Shown: piece after piece, positions 12,600 to 39,984 of the stretch | How the letters are laid out: every line of letters starts with the position of its first letter | Numbering within the stretch: position 1 is the first letter of the stretch | Source of the DNA: Rhodothermales bacterium | GTDB taxonomy: Bacteria > Bacteroidota > Rhodothermia > Rhodothermales > VXPQ01 | Assembly (NCBI GenBank): GCA_951812345.1 | Contig: OX638295.1 | Coordinates: forward strand, 745,987 to 809,986 | Reading direction: 5' to 3' | Length of the DNA: 64,000 nt | Program-made: the position numbers and the translations under genes | The notes under the pieces: generated by a model | What the model was told of the DNA's origin: nothing | Seen by the model: only the letters and a program-made list of their open reading frames with translations | Databases searched by the model: none

Positions 12600-14309
12600 T
12601 TGCTGAAGTCTCTTTACGTCCGCGATTACGCTCTCATCGAGGAGCTCCGTGTCGAGTTCGATGCAGGGCTTACGATCATTACGGGCGAGACGGGCGCTGG
12701 CAAGTCCATTCTGATCGGGGCGCTGCAGGCGATCCTGGGCGAGCGGACCTCTCCTTCCGCCATTCGATCCGGTGCTGCGAAAGCGGTCATAGAGGGAGTG
12801 TTTGACCAGGCGGACGATCCGTCCGTTGCGTCCTTGCTCCCGGAATATGCGGTGGATCCTGCGCCGGTCATGATCCTGCGCCGGGAAATCACGGCGTCGT
12901 ACAGTCGTGGATTCATAAATGACTCCCCGGCTACGCTGCAGGCGATGCGTGCCGTCGCCTCCCGTCTCATCGATTTGCATGGGCAGCATGAGCACCAGTC
13001 GCTGCTGAACGTTTCGACGCATATCGGCCTGCTGGACGATTTTGGCCGGCTCGGAGAAGCGCGCGAAGCGTACGCAGATCATTTCCGGAATTTCTCGGCG
13101 CTGCTTGCCGAACGGGACGCGCTGGCGGCCCGGCAGCGCGACATGGAGGAAAAGCGCGCGCTCCATGCATTTCAGATCGATGAGATCGATCACGTATCGC
13201 CCGGCGAAGGAGAAGAAGAACTTCTCGAAAACGAGCGCCGCGTGCTGGAGCATGCGGAACGTTTGCACGAGGCATCCGCCCGGTTGAGTTCTATCTTGTA
13301 CGAAGGGGGACAATCCATTCATGATCAACTAATTGCTGTCCGCAACGAGCTGCGTGAACTGGCGGAGATCGATCCCCGCTTCGAGGAAACGCTCGGCGAG
13401 ATCGATTCCGCCTGCATCGTCACGGCGGAGACCTCCTCGTTTCTGAAGCAATATGGTGAGCAGGCGGCGTTCGACCCGGAGCGGCTCGAAGAAATCAGGA
13501 TTCGGCTTGTCGATATACGGGGACTGGTCCGGAAGTACGGGGGCACACTGGAAGCGGTCCTCGAACACCGGCGCAGGATCGGCGAGGCCCAAGCCGAGGC
13601 GGAGCATTTCGACACGGCGCTCGATACCCTGACGGATCGCATGGCGACAGTGCAGAAACGGTTGTCAGAGGCTGCTGTCCACCTGAACGCCCTGCGCAAG
13701 GAGGTAGCCCACGCCATCCGGGAAGCGGTGGAGGAGGAATGCAGCAAGCTCGGCATGGTCGATTGCCGGTTCGAGGTCCGGTTCTCCGCGGACGAGGATC
13801 CGGACGGGTGGATTCATACAGGGAAACGGCGAGTGGCGGTGCATGCTTCGGGCATGGATCGTGTCGAGTTTTACATCTCAACGAACAAGGGGGAAGCTTT
13901 GCGGCCGCTTGCCCGCGTTGCTTCCGGGGGGGAGATCAGCCGCATCATGCTGGCTTTGAAGACCGTGCTGGCGCGAAGCGAGGCGTTTCCGGTGCTGGTT
14001 TTTGACGAGATCGACACCGGTATTTCGGGGGCGGTGGCAAGTAAGGTGGGGCAAAGCCTGCATGCACTGGCCGCAAACCATCAGATTATCGCCATCACCC
14101 ATTTGCCCCAGATTGCAGCGCAAGGGGATGCGCATTTCGTAGTCGAGAAATATGTAGAGGGGGGGCGTACAAAGACACGCATTCGGCAACTGGTTGAAAA
14201 CCAGCGGGCAGAACATGTGGCCGGGTTGATGGCCGGTGCCGATATTACGGATGCGGCGCGGCAAAGCGCACAGGATTTAATGGAAGCCAGCCGCAAGGGA
14301 GGGGCATAA
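12600..14309 (+). CDS. recN: DNA repair ATPase RecN
   Basis: 569 residues, normal for RecN, an SMC-like ATPase in double-strand break repair. Visible: N-terminal head with Walker A GETGAGKS near residue 30, GQHEHQSLL, a long coiled-coil middle (about 150-365), then the C-terminal head with signature VASGGEISRIMLALK, Walker B VLVFDEIDTGISG and the switch ITHLPQIA. Translation appears to start with TTG at 12600, where the family N-terminus LKSLYVRDYALIEEL begins; no suitable ATG exists upstream. The stop TAA shares its final A with the next start (TAATG), so the next gene is coupled. Confidence 0.96.
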   Translation: MLKSLYVRDYALIEELRVEFDAGLTIITGETGAGKSILIGALQAILGERTSPSAIRSGAAKAVIEGVFDQADDPSVASLLPEYAVDPAPVMILRREITASYSRGFINDSPATLQAMRAVASRLIDLHGQHEHQSLLNVSTHIGLLDDFGRLGEAREAYADHFRNFSALLAERDALAARQRDMEEKRALHAFQIDEIDHVSPGEGEEELLENERRVLEHAERLHEASARLSSILYEGGQSIHDQLIAVRNELRELAEIDPRFEETLGEIDSACIVTAETSSFLKQYGEQAAFDPERLEEIRIRLVDIRGLVRKYGGTLEAVLEHRRRIGEAQAEAEHFDTALDTLTDRMATVQKRLSEAAVHLNALRKEVAHAIREAVEEECSKLGMVDCRFEVRFSADEDPDGWIHTGKRRVAVHASGMDRVEFYISTNKGEALRPLARVASGGEISRIMLALKTVLARSEAFPVLVFDEIDTGISGAVASKVGQSLHALAANHQIIAITHLPQIAAQGDAHFVVEKYVEGGRTKTRIRQLVENQRAEHVAGLMAGADITDAARQSAQDLMEASRKGGA

Positions 14310-18489: not shown

Positions 18490-18632
18490 GGGGAAGGGAA
18501 ATATTTCAGATTACTGGTGCAGGCCTCCCCGCTAACCGTTCACATGGTTTTATGGTTCGCGGATGACCATTTTCTTGTAAGGACAGATACAAGATGTTTT
18601 CCGGTTGCTGCTTGATTGAGCCATTCAATTGC

Positions 18633-19517
18633 TTATTTGAGCAATTCCAATTTATTTCGCAGAACCGTTTCAAAATCATCGCGACGTACTGCATACGCTG
18701 CGAGGAGTTTTTCGTGAGATTTTTCCAGCGTAAGCACTTCCCAATGCCCGCGCGTCAATCGATACTTTCCGTCATTACCTCGTTCCACTTCCGGAACGAG
18801 CCATACGATATCCCCATCACTGAGATCGTGGCTGGGATTCGAAGACGGCCCTCCGATCGCTTCAAAAAAAGGGCGATCAACAGCTACGGCCATTTTGGAC
18901 CCCCATCGACGCAGTGTTGGCACTTTGATTTGTAATTGCGGCATAAGTCTCTTTGCGCTGGACGAGCGCCAGTCCGGGCGCCGTGTCTCAACGGGGAACG
19001 GAGGGGTCGGCTGCACACTTCTTTCCAATTTCGCAAATTCGGATTGCATCCCGGGCCCGGAAAAATACACAGCCTGAATTTCCAAACCATACCAGGACAA
19101 TCGTTCCTTACTTCCACTGGCGATCACAAGGTCGATTTTTCCTGCCGGTCTTCCCGTTTCCGTTCCCTGCATGAACGGAACTTCTCTCGAGATCATGACC
19201 TTGTCCGATGGAAAACCAATGATATCTGCAAGCCATCGGACAACGACATGTTTCTCGTTGAATCTCTTGGGGCAGACAATCACAGGATCCCCTTCAGGGG
19301 TATCGATCATGCCGTCCGCATCTGGCATATAACTGTGCAGCGAGCATACCCCGCCCTTTTTACTGCATGGCGGTTTTCCTTCTTGAAATGGACAGCAGGG
19401 GCGTTCATCCGCCCTGTTGTTTAGTGCTATCCTGGCAAGGCGATTTCTCTCAGAGGGCGATAAATCCAGAAAGGAATATCCGTACCACTCAGCGATACCA
19501 TAGCGCGGTGCGGTCAT
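18633..19517 (-). CDS. NotI-family type II restriction endonuclease
   Basis: 294 residues. An N-terminal Cys cluster (Cys41, 42, 51, 58 in CCPFQEG, PPCSKK, GVCSLHS) resembles the iron-binding Cys4 site of NotI, and a PD-(D/E)xK-like core shows Asp129 (GKIDLVIA) and Glu146-x-Gln148 (GLEIQAVYFSG); NotI likewise uses Glu-x-Gln. It should cut unmodified DNA at a long site. The start ATG lies 12 bases after the stop of an adenine methyltransferase on the same strand, the usual layout of a restriction-modification pair. The gene is visibly less GC-rich than its neighbours, suggesting transfer. Recognition sequence unknown. Confidence 0.82.
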   Translation of the reverse strand: MTAPRYGIAEWYGYSFLDLSPSERNRLARIALNNRADERPCCPFQEGKPPCSKKGGVCSLHSYMPDADGMIDTPEGDPVIVCPKRFNEKHVVVRWLADIIGFPSDKVMISREVPFMQGTETGRPAGKIDLVIASGSKERLSWYGLEIQAVYFSGPGMQSEFAKLERSVQPTPPFPVETRRPDWRSSSAKRLMPQLQIKVPTLRRWGSKMAVAVDRPFFEAIGGPSSNPSHDLSDGDIVWLVPEVERGNDGKYRLTRGHWEVLTLEKSHEKLLAAYAVRRDDFETVLRNKLELLK

Positions 19518-19531
19518 AATCAGAGTATCCT
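19518..19531 (-). repeat. dispersed AGGATACTCTGAT motif, copy 4
   Basis: On the minus strand the bases TAGGATACTCTGATT fill the whole gap between the methyltransferase stop and the restriction enzyme start. So in this copy the motif sits inside a two-gene unit and could affect translation of the nuclease. Confidence 0.6.
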
Positions 19532-20564
19532 AATGAAAAACCGGTCGTGGGGTGATGATCAATTCCGGGAGGCGCGTGTGATGACTGTTCTTCATTAGCA
19601 CCCGCACAGCAGAAAATCCGTGCAGGCGTATCAGCGACATGATTTCGGGCGCACAATCGTACGTCATCAGAAAATTCGCCCCGGTTCCGGCCAATATGGA
19701 AAATAACCGTTCATGGTCGATTTCACTGTGGGCATAGAGTCGCGAGCCCGCGCGTTTCCCCCCCGCAGTGTATGGCGGATCGACAAAAACCGCAACATTT
19801 TCATTGAGATCGCAAGCGAGCGCTTCGAGGAATTGCATACCGTCCGTTTCGCAAAAGGCTATGCGATCCGCATAGTGGCCGATCGCTTCCAGACGCTTGA
19901 CAAGAGTACCAGGATACCACCTTGACGAAATGCCGTGTCCGTTCTCGCCCTTTTTTGAAAGGGATGCGCCCGGGGCAAGGATACCGCTCCGTCGGGTACG
20001 ATTCAGGACCAGCGTGCGAAACCCATGTTCGGCCGTGTTTCGAGGGGCTGCGTTCGCCAGTATCTCTACATTGGATCGGGTTGGATCGAATGCCTGCACG
20101 CGCCGGATCAGTTCATCTCCCTGACGCAACGCGGCATGCCAAAAAGCCGCCACATCCCGATCCAGTTCAATCATTATGCATCGCTTGACCAGGCTTTCCA
20201 TAACGGCCGTCAAGGAAACAATACCTCCCCCCGCAAATGGCTCAATAAGGAGATCGACGGAAGGCAGACCTCCAAGCCATGCCCGAATATGGGGAATGAG
20301 CCATGTTTTTCCGCCGGGATATCTGAGGGGGCTGCGTTGCGGGACCTGGGCTACGTTGACCGCTGGAATCGGTGATTCCGGGATGATCATGGGCGGTACG
20401 GCCGGCGACGAAACTGCGGCTTCCGCTTCATGGCGAGAGCGGTCCGGGGGGCTTTGGGTCCGAGGGACAGACAGTGTTGCGGCCTCGCTACCTGTCTTTT
20501 CCGCCGGGTCGTCGATGTTCCGAAACAACGGTCCCGGATATTTGATTTGAATACCGCTATCCAT
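19530..20564 (-). CDS. D12-class N6-adenine DNA methyltransferase
   Basis: 344 residues. Dam-like order of motifs: SPLRYPGGK (motif X, near 78-86), EPFAGGG (motif I, SAM binding, 108-114) and VFVDPPYTAGG (motif IV DPPY, 262-265), with a target-recognition stretch between (about 160-240). It methylates adenine N6 and should protect the host against the neighbouring NotI-family nuclease. Residues 1-75 match no domain I recognise and are Pro/Ala/Ser-rich; ATG at 20390 (MIIPESPIPAV) is a possible shorter start just before motif X. The DPPY adenine chemistry means the protected site contains A. Confidence 0.88.
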   Translation of the reverse strand: MDSGIQIKYPGPLFRNIDDPAEKTGSEAATLSVPRTQSPPDRSRHEAEAAVSSPAVPPMIIPESPIPAVNVAQVPQRSPLRYPGGKTWLIPHIRAWLGGLPSVDLLIEPFAGGGIVSLTAVMESLVKRCIMIELDRDVAAFWHAALRQGDELIRRVQAFDPTRSNVEILANAAPRNTAEHGFRTLVLNRTRRSGILAPGASLSKKGENGHGISSRWYPGTLVKRLEAIGHYADRIAFCETDGMQFLEALACDLNENVAVFVDPPYTAGGKRAGSRLYAHSEIDHERLFSILAGTGANFLMTYDCAPEIMSLIRLHGFSAVRVLMKNSHHTRLPELIITPRPVFH

Positions 20565-20644
20565 CGCCTTACCCCTCCCGAACGTATATTCCCAACAGTG
20601 GCGTTTCTCCTCCCGACAGCATATGCAGTATACTGATCAGGGGG

Positions 20645-20683
20645 ATGGACATCAAGAACGGAACTGGCAAAATCCATCCTTAA
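20645..20683 (+). other. possible 12-codon leader ORF before the MBL hydrolase gene
   Basis: GGGGG is followed by ATG at 20645 and a short frame MDIKNGTGKIHP ending in TAA. A TATACT hexamer stands at 20629-20634. It precedes a GC-rich hairpin (20701-20732) and the MBL gene at 20760. The layout resembles a leader peptide plus attenuator, but the residues do not point to any amino acid and it may be chance. Confidence 0.25.
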
Positions 20684-20700
20684 ATGGGATTGGTTCTATC

Positions 20701-20743
20701 TGCCGGGCGCCCATGTGGTCATTCGCCCGGCATAACCTTTTTA
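20701..20743 (+). terminator. hairpin with T-rich tail upstream of the MBL hydrolase
   Basis: TGCCGGGCG (20701-20709) and CGCCCGGCA (20724-20732) form a perfect 9-bp GC-rich stem with a 14-base loop, followed by TAACCTTTTTAG. It looks like an intrinsic terminator on the plus strand, yet no plus-strand gene ends just upstream, so an attenuator for the gene at 20760 is possible. Confidence 0.5.
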
Positions 20744-20759
20744 GTCCCTTGATTCCCCC

Positions 20760-38460: not shown

Positions 38461-39984
38461 TTAGTCTTTTCCAACCGTCACGATGATCCGACGGTACCGG
38501 TACAGAACGGGTTCGCCGTCGTCATGTGCCGTGAGAATGACTTGAATCTCTGCGCCGACAGCATTTTCCGGGACGACAAGGCTTGCTTCCATGGACGAAG
38601 CATTCGTTATGGAGACATCGCCCGGATACGAGCCGGCCTCGGAATAGACCCACCAGTCGAATGTGAGATGGTCTCCATCGGGGTCTGACGATCCCTCGGC
38701 GCTCAGGCGAATCGTCTCGCCGATGTGTGCGGTGATATGGAGAGGGTCCAGACCGGCGTCGCCGTTCACGACCAGCATCGGGTTGTGGTTCGCCCCGGCG
38801 AAGTCCGGCGTGTTGCTCCAGTCCGCCCGTGCGGCGATGTCGTGCTGGTACCCTTCCCGCCAGCGCCACACCGTGGCGTGGTTCGTGGTGTACGTGTTGC
38901 CGTCAAAGGCCAGCACGGTATCGTCCGAATTGGTCCAGATAGGCCGGGATTCTCCTTCGGGCTGCGATACGGCATAGCGGCCGCCCCAGCCCCCGTAACT
39001 CGGGCTGACGTGTCCGGCCAGCCCGTTCCGGAACAGGTTCATGAACGAGGGGGTGTCGCCTTCCATCAGGTAGGCTGTAGCCGGGTAACGTGTCCCCAGC
39101 GGCCCGTGCCCGGTGCGGATATTTTCCGATAGCCAGGGATTATCGACGATGTCGAAGTTCGGCCCCTCGAACATCCCGTGGAAGTGGTCCCCGGAAATGC
39201 CCACCCAGGTGGCGTATTTGTAGTCGTCACCGTCATGCGGCGAGCTGGGCGTCACTACATAGAACAGGTCGGGAAATTCCTGCCGCATCCAGGGGCCGGA
39301 ATCGTCCTGGTCGGAAATCGTGTACACGCGCAGTTTGGCCACGAAGGCGTCCAGTTCTTCCGAGGTGCGCGTCTCGCGGACTTTCCACAGGGCCTGCGCA
39401 AGGCAGTTGGCCCCTCCCCAGACGCTGATCCACAAGGGGCGGTCGTCCTCCTTGTCCACGGCGGCGATGATGTGTTCGGAGCCTTCCGTATCGTTTCCCT
39501 TGCCGACGCCGTTCATGCCGTATACATCCCGGCACGTTTTCACCTGCGAGAGCAGAAAATCCGCCTCCGGGTAGCCGTCGGCGTGTACGATGAGGTTGTT
39601 GCGCACTTCACGGTATGCCTCGATATGGCCCCGGATTTTGTCCGCCCGTGTGGTGTCCCGCATCCAGACGGACGTGGTGGCGAGCAGGCCCTCTACATCC
39701 ATTTCGTTGGCGTAGAGCAGGAAGCGGACGAGCGATTGGGCGTCGTCCGGTTCGTTTTCGATGTCCGTGAGGACGAGCACCCGCGATTTGGAGGATGGAG
39801 CGGGCAGGGGGGCGTTCTGTGCCTCGCCGGCGGAGTTGGAGCAGGCGGTGGGGAGGAGCGTCGCGGCAATGAGCAGGGCTGCGAGCGAGCCTCCGGATTG
39901 TTGCACCGGGGTTTTGCTTTCCGCGGTTTTCGCAGTAAGAATGCGGGCCCCGGCAGGTTCGGAGCATGAGAAGGCGTCGCGCAT
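38461..39984 (-). CDS. DUF1593/Sde182-type nucleoside-hydrolase-like secreted protein
   Basis: 507 residues from ATG 39984, or about 481 from GTG 39906, which would give a compact lipoprotein signal (LLIAATLLPTAC). Domains: a nucleoside-hydrolase-like part (about 65-340) opening with RVLVLTDIENEPDDAQSLVR, a metal-type Asp cluster; then a C-terminal beta-sandwich (about 400-507) ending EPVLYRYRRIIVTVGKD. Relatives are described as cellulose-binding or plant-polysaccharide-linked exported proteins; catalytic activity is not established. Two orphan copies of its C-terminal tail are found in this window (26443-26601, 40215-40253). Confidence 0.85.
   Translation of the reverse strand: MRDAFSCSEPAGARILTAKTAESKTPVQQSGGSLAALLIAATLLPTACSNSAGEAQNAPLPAPSSKSRVLVLTDIENEPDDAQSLVRFLLYANEMDVEGLLATTSVWMRDTTRADKIRGHIEAYREVRNNLIVHADGYPEADFLLSQVKTCRDVYGMNGVGKGNDTEGSEHIIAAVDKEDDRPLWISVWGGANCLAQALWKVRETRTSEELDAFVAKLRVYTISDQDDSGPWMRQEFPDLFYVVTPSSPHDGDDYKYATWVGISGDHFHGMFEGPNFDIVDNPWLSENIRTGHGPLGTRYPATAYLMEGDTPSFMNLFRNGLAGHVSPSYGGWGGRYAVSQPEGESRPIWTNSDDTVLAFDGNTYTTNHATVWRWREGYQHDIAARADWSNTPDFAGANHNPMLVVNGDAGLDPLHITAHIGETIRLSAEGSSDPDGDHLTFDWWVYSEAGSYPGDVSITNASSMEASLVVPENAVGAEIQVILTAHDDGEPVLYRYRRIIVTVGKD

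Follow-up and report, generated by a model that had tools for sequence, protein, structure and literature searches.

The question raised by this locus is which DNA site would be cut by a NotI-family nuclease whose neighbour is an adenine methyltransferase, and whether that neighbour protects the site. The sites of the widely used enzymes NotI (GCGGCCGC) and EagI (CGGCCG) consist of G and C only. The window, i.e., the whole stretch of 64,000 nucleotides that was analysed, carried the nuclease gene (R) at 18633..19517 on the minus strand, encoding a NotI-family restriction endonuclease (PF12183) of 294 aa with an ATG start. The methyltransferase gene (M), at 19530..20564 on the same strand, encoded a predicted N6-adenine methyltransferase of the D12 class (alpha; PF02086) of 344 aa. 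The ORF calls bore out the coordinates, the strand and the 12-base spacing given for both genes in the original prediction. M was located upstream of R, and this M-then-R order is a probable operon. The bacterium is a probable sponge symbiont, judging from its relative OX638293.

The family of the nuclease was evaluated via profile searches and structure modelling. The nuclease scored 148 bits against the PF12183 NotI profile of Pfam (E = 3.9e-43; curated cut-off, 22 bits), which confirmed the family placement that the original prediction had offered for a search of this kind. The AlphaFold2 model, built from an alignment of homologues, had a mean pLDDT of 93. The Foldseek search of the PDB with this model retrieved the apo structure of NotI (3bvq) with an E value of 8.3e-8, a probability of 1.00, a TMq of 0.65 and 14% identity; it was the sole fold match below 0.001, and BamHI was among the next, non-significant matches. 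Neither phmmer nor a 37-sequence profile matched NotI in the PDB chain sequences. Hence, the case for homology to NotI is made by Pfam and by the fold, and the nuclease has, according to its model, a NotI fold but is a distant relative of NotI.

The conserved residues were examined in an alignment of 37 homologues. The predicted Cys4 metal site comprised, on the minus strand, C42 as the first ligand (19392..19394), C51 (19365-19367), C58 (19344-19346) and C82 (19272-19274). C42, C51 and C82 were invariant and C58 was present in 36 of the 37 homologues; eight sequences of wider diversity kept all four without exception. Three members of the cluster proposed earlier (Cys42, Cys51 and Cys58) were therefore retained, whereas Cys41 occurred in only 3 of the 37 rows and C82 belongs in its place. 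The predicted catalytic core, D129...E146-x-Q148 (19074..19133, minus strand), corresponded to the Asp-Glu-x-Gln core described before, and D129, E146 and Q148 were invariant in the 37 homologues. In NotI and BglII, Q replaces the catalytic Lys of PD-(D/E)xK, according to a review of Type II enzymes (PMC4081073). None of the PADLOC profiles matched the nuclease, and no relatives were found in phage records (tblastn) or viral contigs.

The methyltransferase matched the PF02086 D12 profile of Pfam with 41 bits (E = 2.2e-10; cut-off, 22), but it scored 36.8 bits against the Dam subfamily model TIGR00571, for which the cut-off is 114.85. The partner had been called Dam-like with a DPPY motif; the D12 class and the DPPY motif held, and the Dam subfamily did not. 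Motif X was RYPGGK in the alignment, motif I was EPFAGGG (residues 108-114; 20223..20243, minus strand) and motif IV was DPPY (residues 262-265; 19770..19781, minus strand), while the N-terminal ~60 residues were variable and poorly predicted. The relatives in the PDB, by profile and by fold, were 7m6b, Dam and DpnM. The best PADLOC match, PD-Lambda-5_B (E = 1.7e-47), was taken solely as a sign of D12 relatedness. Signature comparison brought out a conserved segment, NRTRRSGILAPGASLSKKGENGHGISSRWYP (residues 188-218; 19911..20003, minus strand), which lies within what is presumed to be the target-recognition region. This signature was common to the NotI-paired D12 enzymes on Aeromonas, Variovorax and Thermus plasmids, and its consensus, NRxxRGGIxAxGxxLxxxGExGxGxxSRWYP, occurred with few substitutions in all compared NotI-paired D12 enzymes. 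Plasmids of Bdellovibrio and Deinococcus also carry D12 enzymes of this clade with the same segment (L170:3501-4385 and L171:3474-4415); these are unpaired, and no NotI-family or other recognised nuclease was found beside them.

The linkage of the two genes was explored across genomes. The scan of GTDB genomes yielded 55 related loci in ten phyla, and two more from an order-level search brought the count to 57; L002 and L030, which agree in nuclease identity and in the lengths of their genes, may be a single locus entered two times. Most of these loci probably came from MAGs of sponge projects, to which many of the names point (the CAR, COS, IRC and RHO bins, Entotheonella and Synechococcus spongiarum). 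The sponge species behind bins of the CAR, COS, IRC and RHO type are tabulated in PMC8163846, from which individual bins may be tied to species. Both genes were intact in 41 of the 57 loci, with M directly upstream of R in every case. R was broken and M retained in 11 of the 57 (M intact in 10 of these 11), although some of the breaks in R may reflect errors of MAG assembly; fragments of R only, without M, made up the other 5. No intact R without M occurred among the 57 loci. This asymmetry of decay, in which R was lost and M was kept, is as predicted for a toxic nuclease and a protecting methyltransferase. R and M are thus linked and co-inherited across ten phyla. The nucleases formed one supported clade (100/99) in the tree, with the phyla intermixed. 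The family scores, the fold match and the 41 intact loci that keep both genes rule out chance. The pair is a real Type II R-M cassette, with a NotI-family nuclease and a D12 partner, and it is probably functional.

In the informative pairs, from which OX638293 was left out for having too few substitutions, dN/dS was low, with values of ~0.08-0.12 in R and ~0.13-0.25 in M. These values bear on the possibility that the nuclease has lost its activity or taken on another role and that the methyltransferase works alone, as an epigenetic mark. The 11 loci that kept M beside a broken R are consistent with such a state, and NotI-domain proteins with an altered core and no methyltransferase exist. However, R in the window is intact with all catalytic and Cys residues, its dN/dS was ~0.08 relative to both L009 and L010, and the recent exchange of the cassette, described below, left R and M both intact. 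Loss of nuclease function at this locus is hence regarded as very unlikely.

The mobility of the cassette was evaluated against two related genomes. The stretch 18500..20757 (unstranded) was absent from the congener G004, in which the empty site comprised ~211 bp with synteny on both sides. The recently exchanged cassette (18600..20642, unstranded) was delimited by G+C and by identity to OX638293, which was ~92% up to 18.4 kb and then 98-100% over 18600-20642; homology ended at 20642 within the compared stretch. The G+C content was 53.7% for the cassette versus 60% for the flanks. The empty site and the jump in identity show that a recent move or exchange of the cassette took place, and both genes came through it intact. 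As an alternative to a defence system, a selfish, homing-like element may be considered, in which the NotI-fold nuclease would drive the spread of the element and the methyltransferase would serve as antitoxin-like protection. The compact unit of ~2 kb in an intergenic site, its movement between relatives and its span of ten phyla would fit such an element; yet neither a conserved insertion site nor a terminal repeat came to light at the cassette, and selfish and defensive roles are compatible, since it is well established that Type II R-M genes can have both. A purely selfish role is therefore unlikely, and a mobile defence cassette is the preferred reading. Its mobility agrees with a report on sponge-symbiont R-M genes, in which Type I/II genes were largely restricted to sponge-associated as opposed to seawater MAGs, enriched and laterally transferred (PMC8163846).

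Whether protection comes from another methyltransferase was explored in OX638293, a single-contig genome with a near-identical system (nuclease 98% identical). No match to the C5 methyltransferase family (PF00145) was obtained in this genome, and the sole PF02086 match was the D12 partner, so that there was no second D12 gene. Two full-length PF01555 proteins, unlinked to the cassette, could in principle be N4-cytosine methyltransferases; PF01555 matches of nearly equal score (orthology being judged by score alone) were present in the congener G004, which lacks the nuclease. The original prediction had allowed for a second methyltransferase elsewhere: this alternative fails for C5 enzymes in OX638293, and for N4-cytosine methylation by the two PF01555 proteins it is made less likely by the like-scoring matches in G004. 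A protector elsewhere is thus disfavoured. The argument rests on OX638293 because the genome of the window has three C5 methyltransferases. Two of these lie ~3.5 kb apart on opposite strands (G000:C1:917474-923033) and are absent from OX638293; the third is at 2556011. In addition, 73 PF01555 matches, many fragmentary or with stops, were observed in the Entotheonella genome G067 (OY282375).

Pairs of NotI-family and D12 genes were also present on plasmids of Aeromonas (NZ_CP121823 and NZ_AP026379), Variovorax (NZ_LR594665), Achromobacter (pEST4011, NC_005793) and Thermus (NZ_AP025595), as well as in other Bacteroidota in the order R-M; the pairing recurs whatever the gene order. This arrangement is already visible in the NCBI annotation of plasmids. 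No description of a NotI-D12 pair was found in the titles and abstracts of the open-access papers searched, and no open-access paper was found with 'NotI family' plus 'restriction endonuclease', coverage being incomplete in both searches. Another plasmid group was represented by the NotI-family genes checked around the commonest C5-methyltransferase matches, all of which had C5 partners, and a NotI/EagI homologue of Xanthomonas likewise has a C5 partner (PMC4853030). The Paraburkholderia pBN5 nuclease, 85% identical to a D12-paired Aeromonas nuclease, had flanking genes for a C5 methyltransferase and the repair nuclease Vsr, and was located with D12-paired nucleases in one small tree group (97/91).

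Further arrangements were observed. The carrier G066 has a second, divergent NotI-family gene (L222:1802-3729, minus strand). The methyltransferase that it overlaps belongs to PF01555, contains a TSPPYW motif and is possibly an N4-cytosine enzyme, and it thus represents a third type of partner for the NotI family. A second type of NotI-domain ORF, ~440-545 aa long, occurred in the Bacteroidota genus g59 (L188, L190, L191, L193-L198, L200-L202 and L204). These ORFs had an N-terminal extension of ~190-280 aa with a weak DUF2383 match in some, and several were present as two convergent copies separated by ~0.6-0.9 kb. Within ~1.5 kb of them, neither a D12 nor a C5 gene was found. Many had E-x-H instead of E-x-Q together with an altered RPDxxSSxxKRLxP motif, and these NotI-fold proteins are possibly repurposed or inactive. 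The frequent change of the core where no such partner was found nearby counts in favour of the R-M reading of the window's pair.

The target site may be considered in view of these partners. The nuclease could keep a GC-only target like that of NotI or EagI, protected by a cytosine methyltransferase elsewhere, with the D12 enzyme as a bystander or in another role. The GC-only sites known for both enzymes, the C5 partners found for the plasmid group and the Xanthomonas homologue, and the presence of PF01555 methyltransferases, some possibly N4C, in carriers would be in keeping with such a target. Nevertheless, OX638293 has no C5 methyltransferase, its two PF01555 proteins are unlinked and have like-scoring matches in the nuclease-less G004, D12 linkage is universal in the intact loci, and GCGGCCGC is present in every carrier sample. 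A GC-only target is therefore quite unlikely. The occurrence of GCGGCCGC noted earlier near 13902 was found at 13901-13908, with a second one in the window at 38977, and the site was present in all ten carrier samples. In view of these sites and the adenine partner, it is unlikely that the nuclease would cut the NotI site. The proposal that the target contains A and is neither the NotI nor the EagI site gained support from the conservation of the D12 partner over ten phyla with no intact nuclease lacking D12, from OX638293 without C5, and from the switch from D12 to C5 beside an 85%-identical nuclease. Hence, a new, A-containing specificity is well supported at the level of sequence comparison.

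The partner swap in pBN5 further constrains the site. If the target was unchanged across the swap, it would contain A and C; the target of the Aeromonas/Paraburkholderia branch thus probably contains both, though 85% identity is no proof of equal specificity. Avoidance of palindromes was evaluated for 4-, 6- and 8-mers in 464 kb of the window's genome and in nine further carriers, sampled at ~117 kb apiece, with seven controls for comparison. No A-containing palindrome was singled out as avoided in the ten carrier genomes but not in the controls. CGATCG was low in the carriers (0.69) and equally low in the controls (0.66), while AGGCGCCT, CAGATCTG, AAGCTT and CTGCAG were lower in the carriers, yet inconsistently or in a way that other R-M systems could explain. 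The analogy with an XorII-type system on CGATCG (C5 + Vsr) was dropped, as there was no evidence for it.

Taken together, it is highly probable that the locus is a Type II M-R cassette in which D12 adenine methylation and a NotI-fold nuclease act on one A-containing site, as a mobile anti-phage and anti-plasmid module. The D12 enzyme would methylate adenine at N6 within a short site that is probably a palindrome, and the NotI-fold PD-(D/E)xQ nuclease, which presumably acts as a dimer and has a Cys4 metal site, would cut unmethylated copies of that site. This site would contain A and probably C, and so would be neither GCGGCCGC nor CGGCCG. The cassette would serve as a module against phages and plasmids with lateral movement among symbionts. 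More broadly, it is likely that one widespread branch of the NotI fold has turned to A-containing sites that D12 enzymes protect, with the protecting chemistry swapped from m6A to m5C at least once beside a nearly unchanged nuclease. To our knowledge, the NotI fold is known experimentally solely from cutters of GC-only sites. If the reading is true, this adenine-protected branch predicts new, possibly rare-cutting specificities and would offer a large supply of NotI-fold enzymes not yet explored, and the D12/C5 swap brackets the target as one that should hold A and C. The locus is, in addition, a concrete example of a mobile R-M cassette common to ten phyla.

Among known systems, R.NotI (PDB 3bvq) shares the fold, the pattern of the Cys4 metal site and the D...E-x-Q core with our nuclease, but the structural alignment has only 14% identity and the partner of our nuclease is a D12 adenine enzyme. 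The enzymes of the BglII/BamHI type are without a Cys4 domain and have no significant similarity to our nuclease. They resemble it as PD-(D/E)xK variants in which Q or E replaces the catalytic Lys (PMC4081073). The methyltransferase has the fold and motifs X, I and IV (DPPY) of Dam, DpnM, T4Dam and 7m6b, whereas it fails the Dam cut-off, differs in the presumed recognition hairpin and belongs to an R-M pair. In the NotI-C5 pairs (Paraburkholderia pBN5 with Vsr, Sedimenticola, and the Xanthomonas, Aeromonas and Roseivivax plasmids), a NotI-family nuclease likewise adjoins a DNA methyltransferase, but the partner is a cytosine-C5 enzyme and most of these nucleases are on a very distant branch. 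The plasmid NotI-D12 pairs have the same two families side by side, with nucleases 28-43% identical and D12 enzymes ~46% identical to ours and with the shared signature segment; they differ in their R-M order, as opposed to M-R here, in being plasmid-borne and in belonging to other branches of the nuclease tree.
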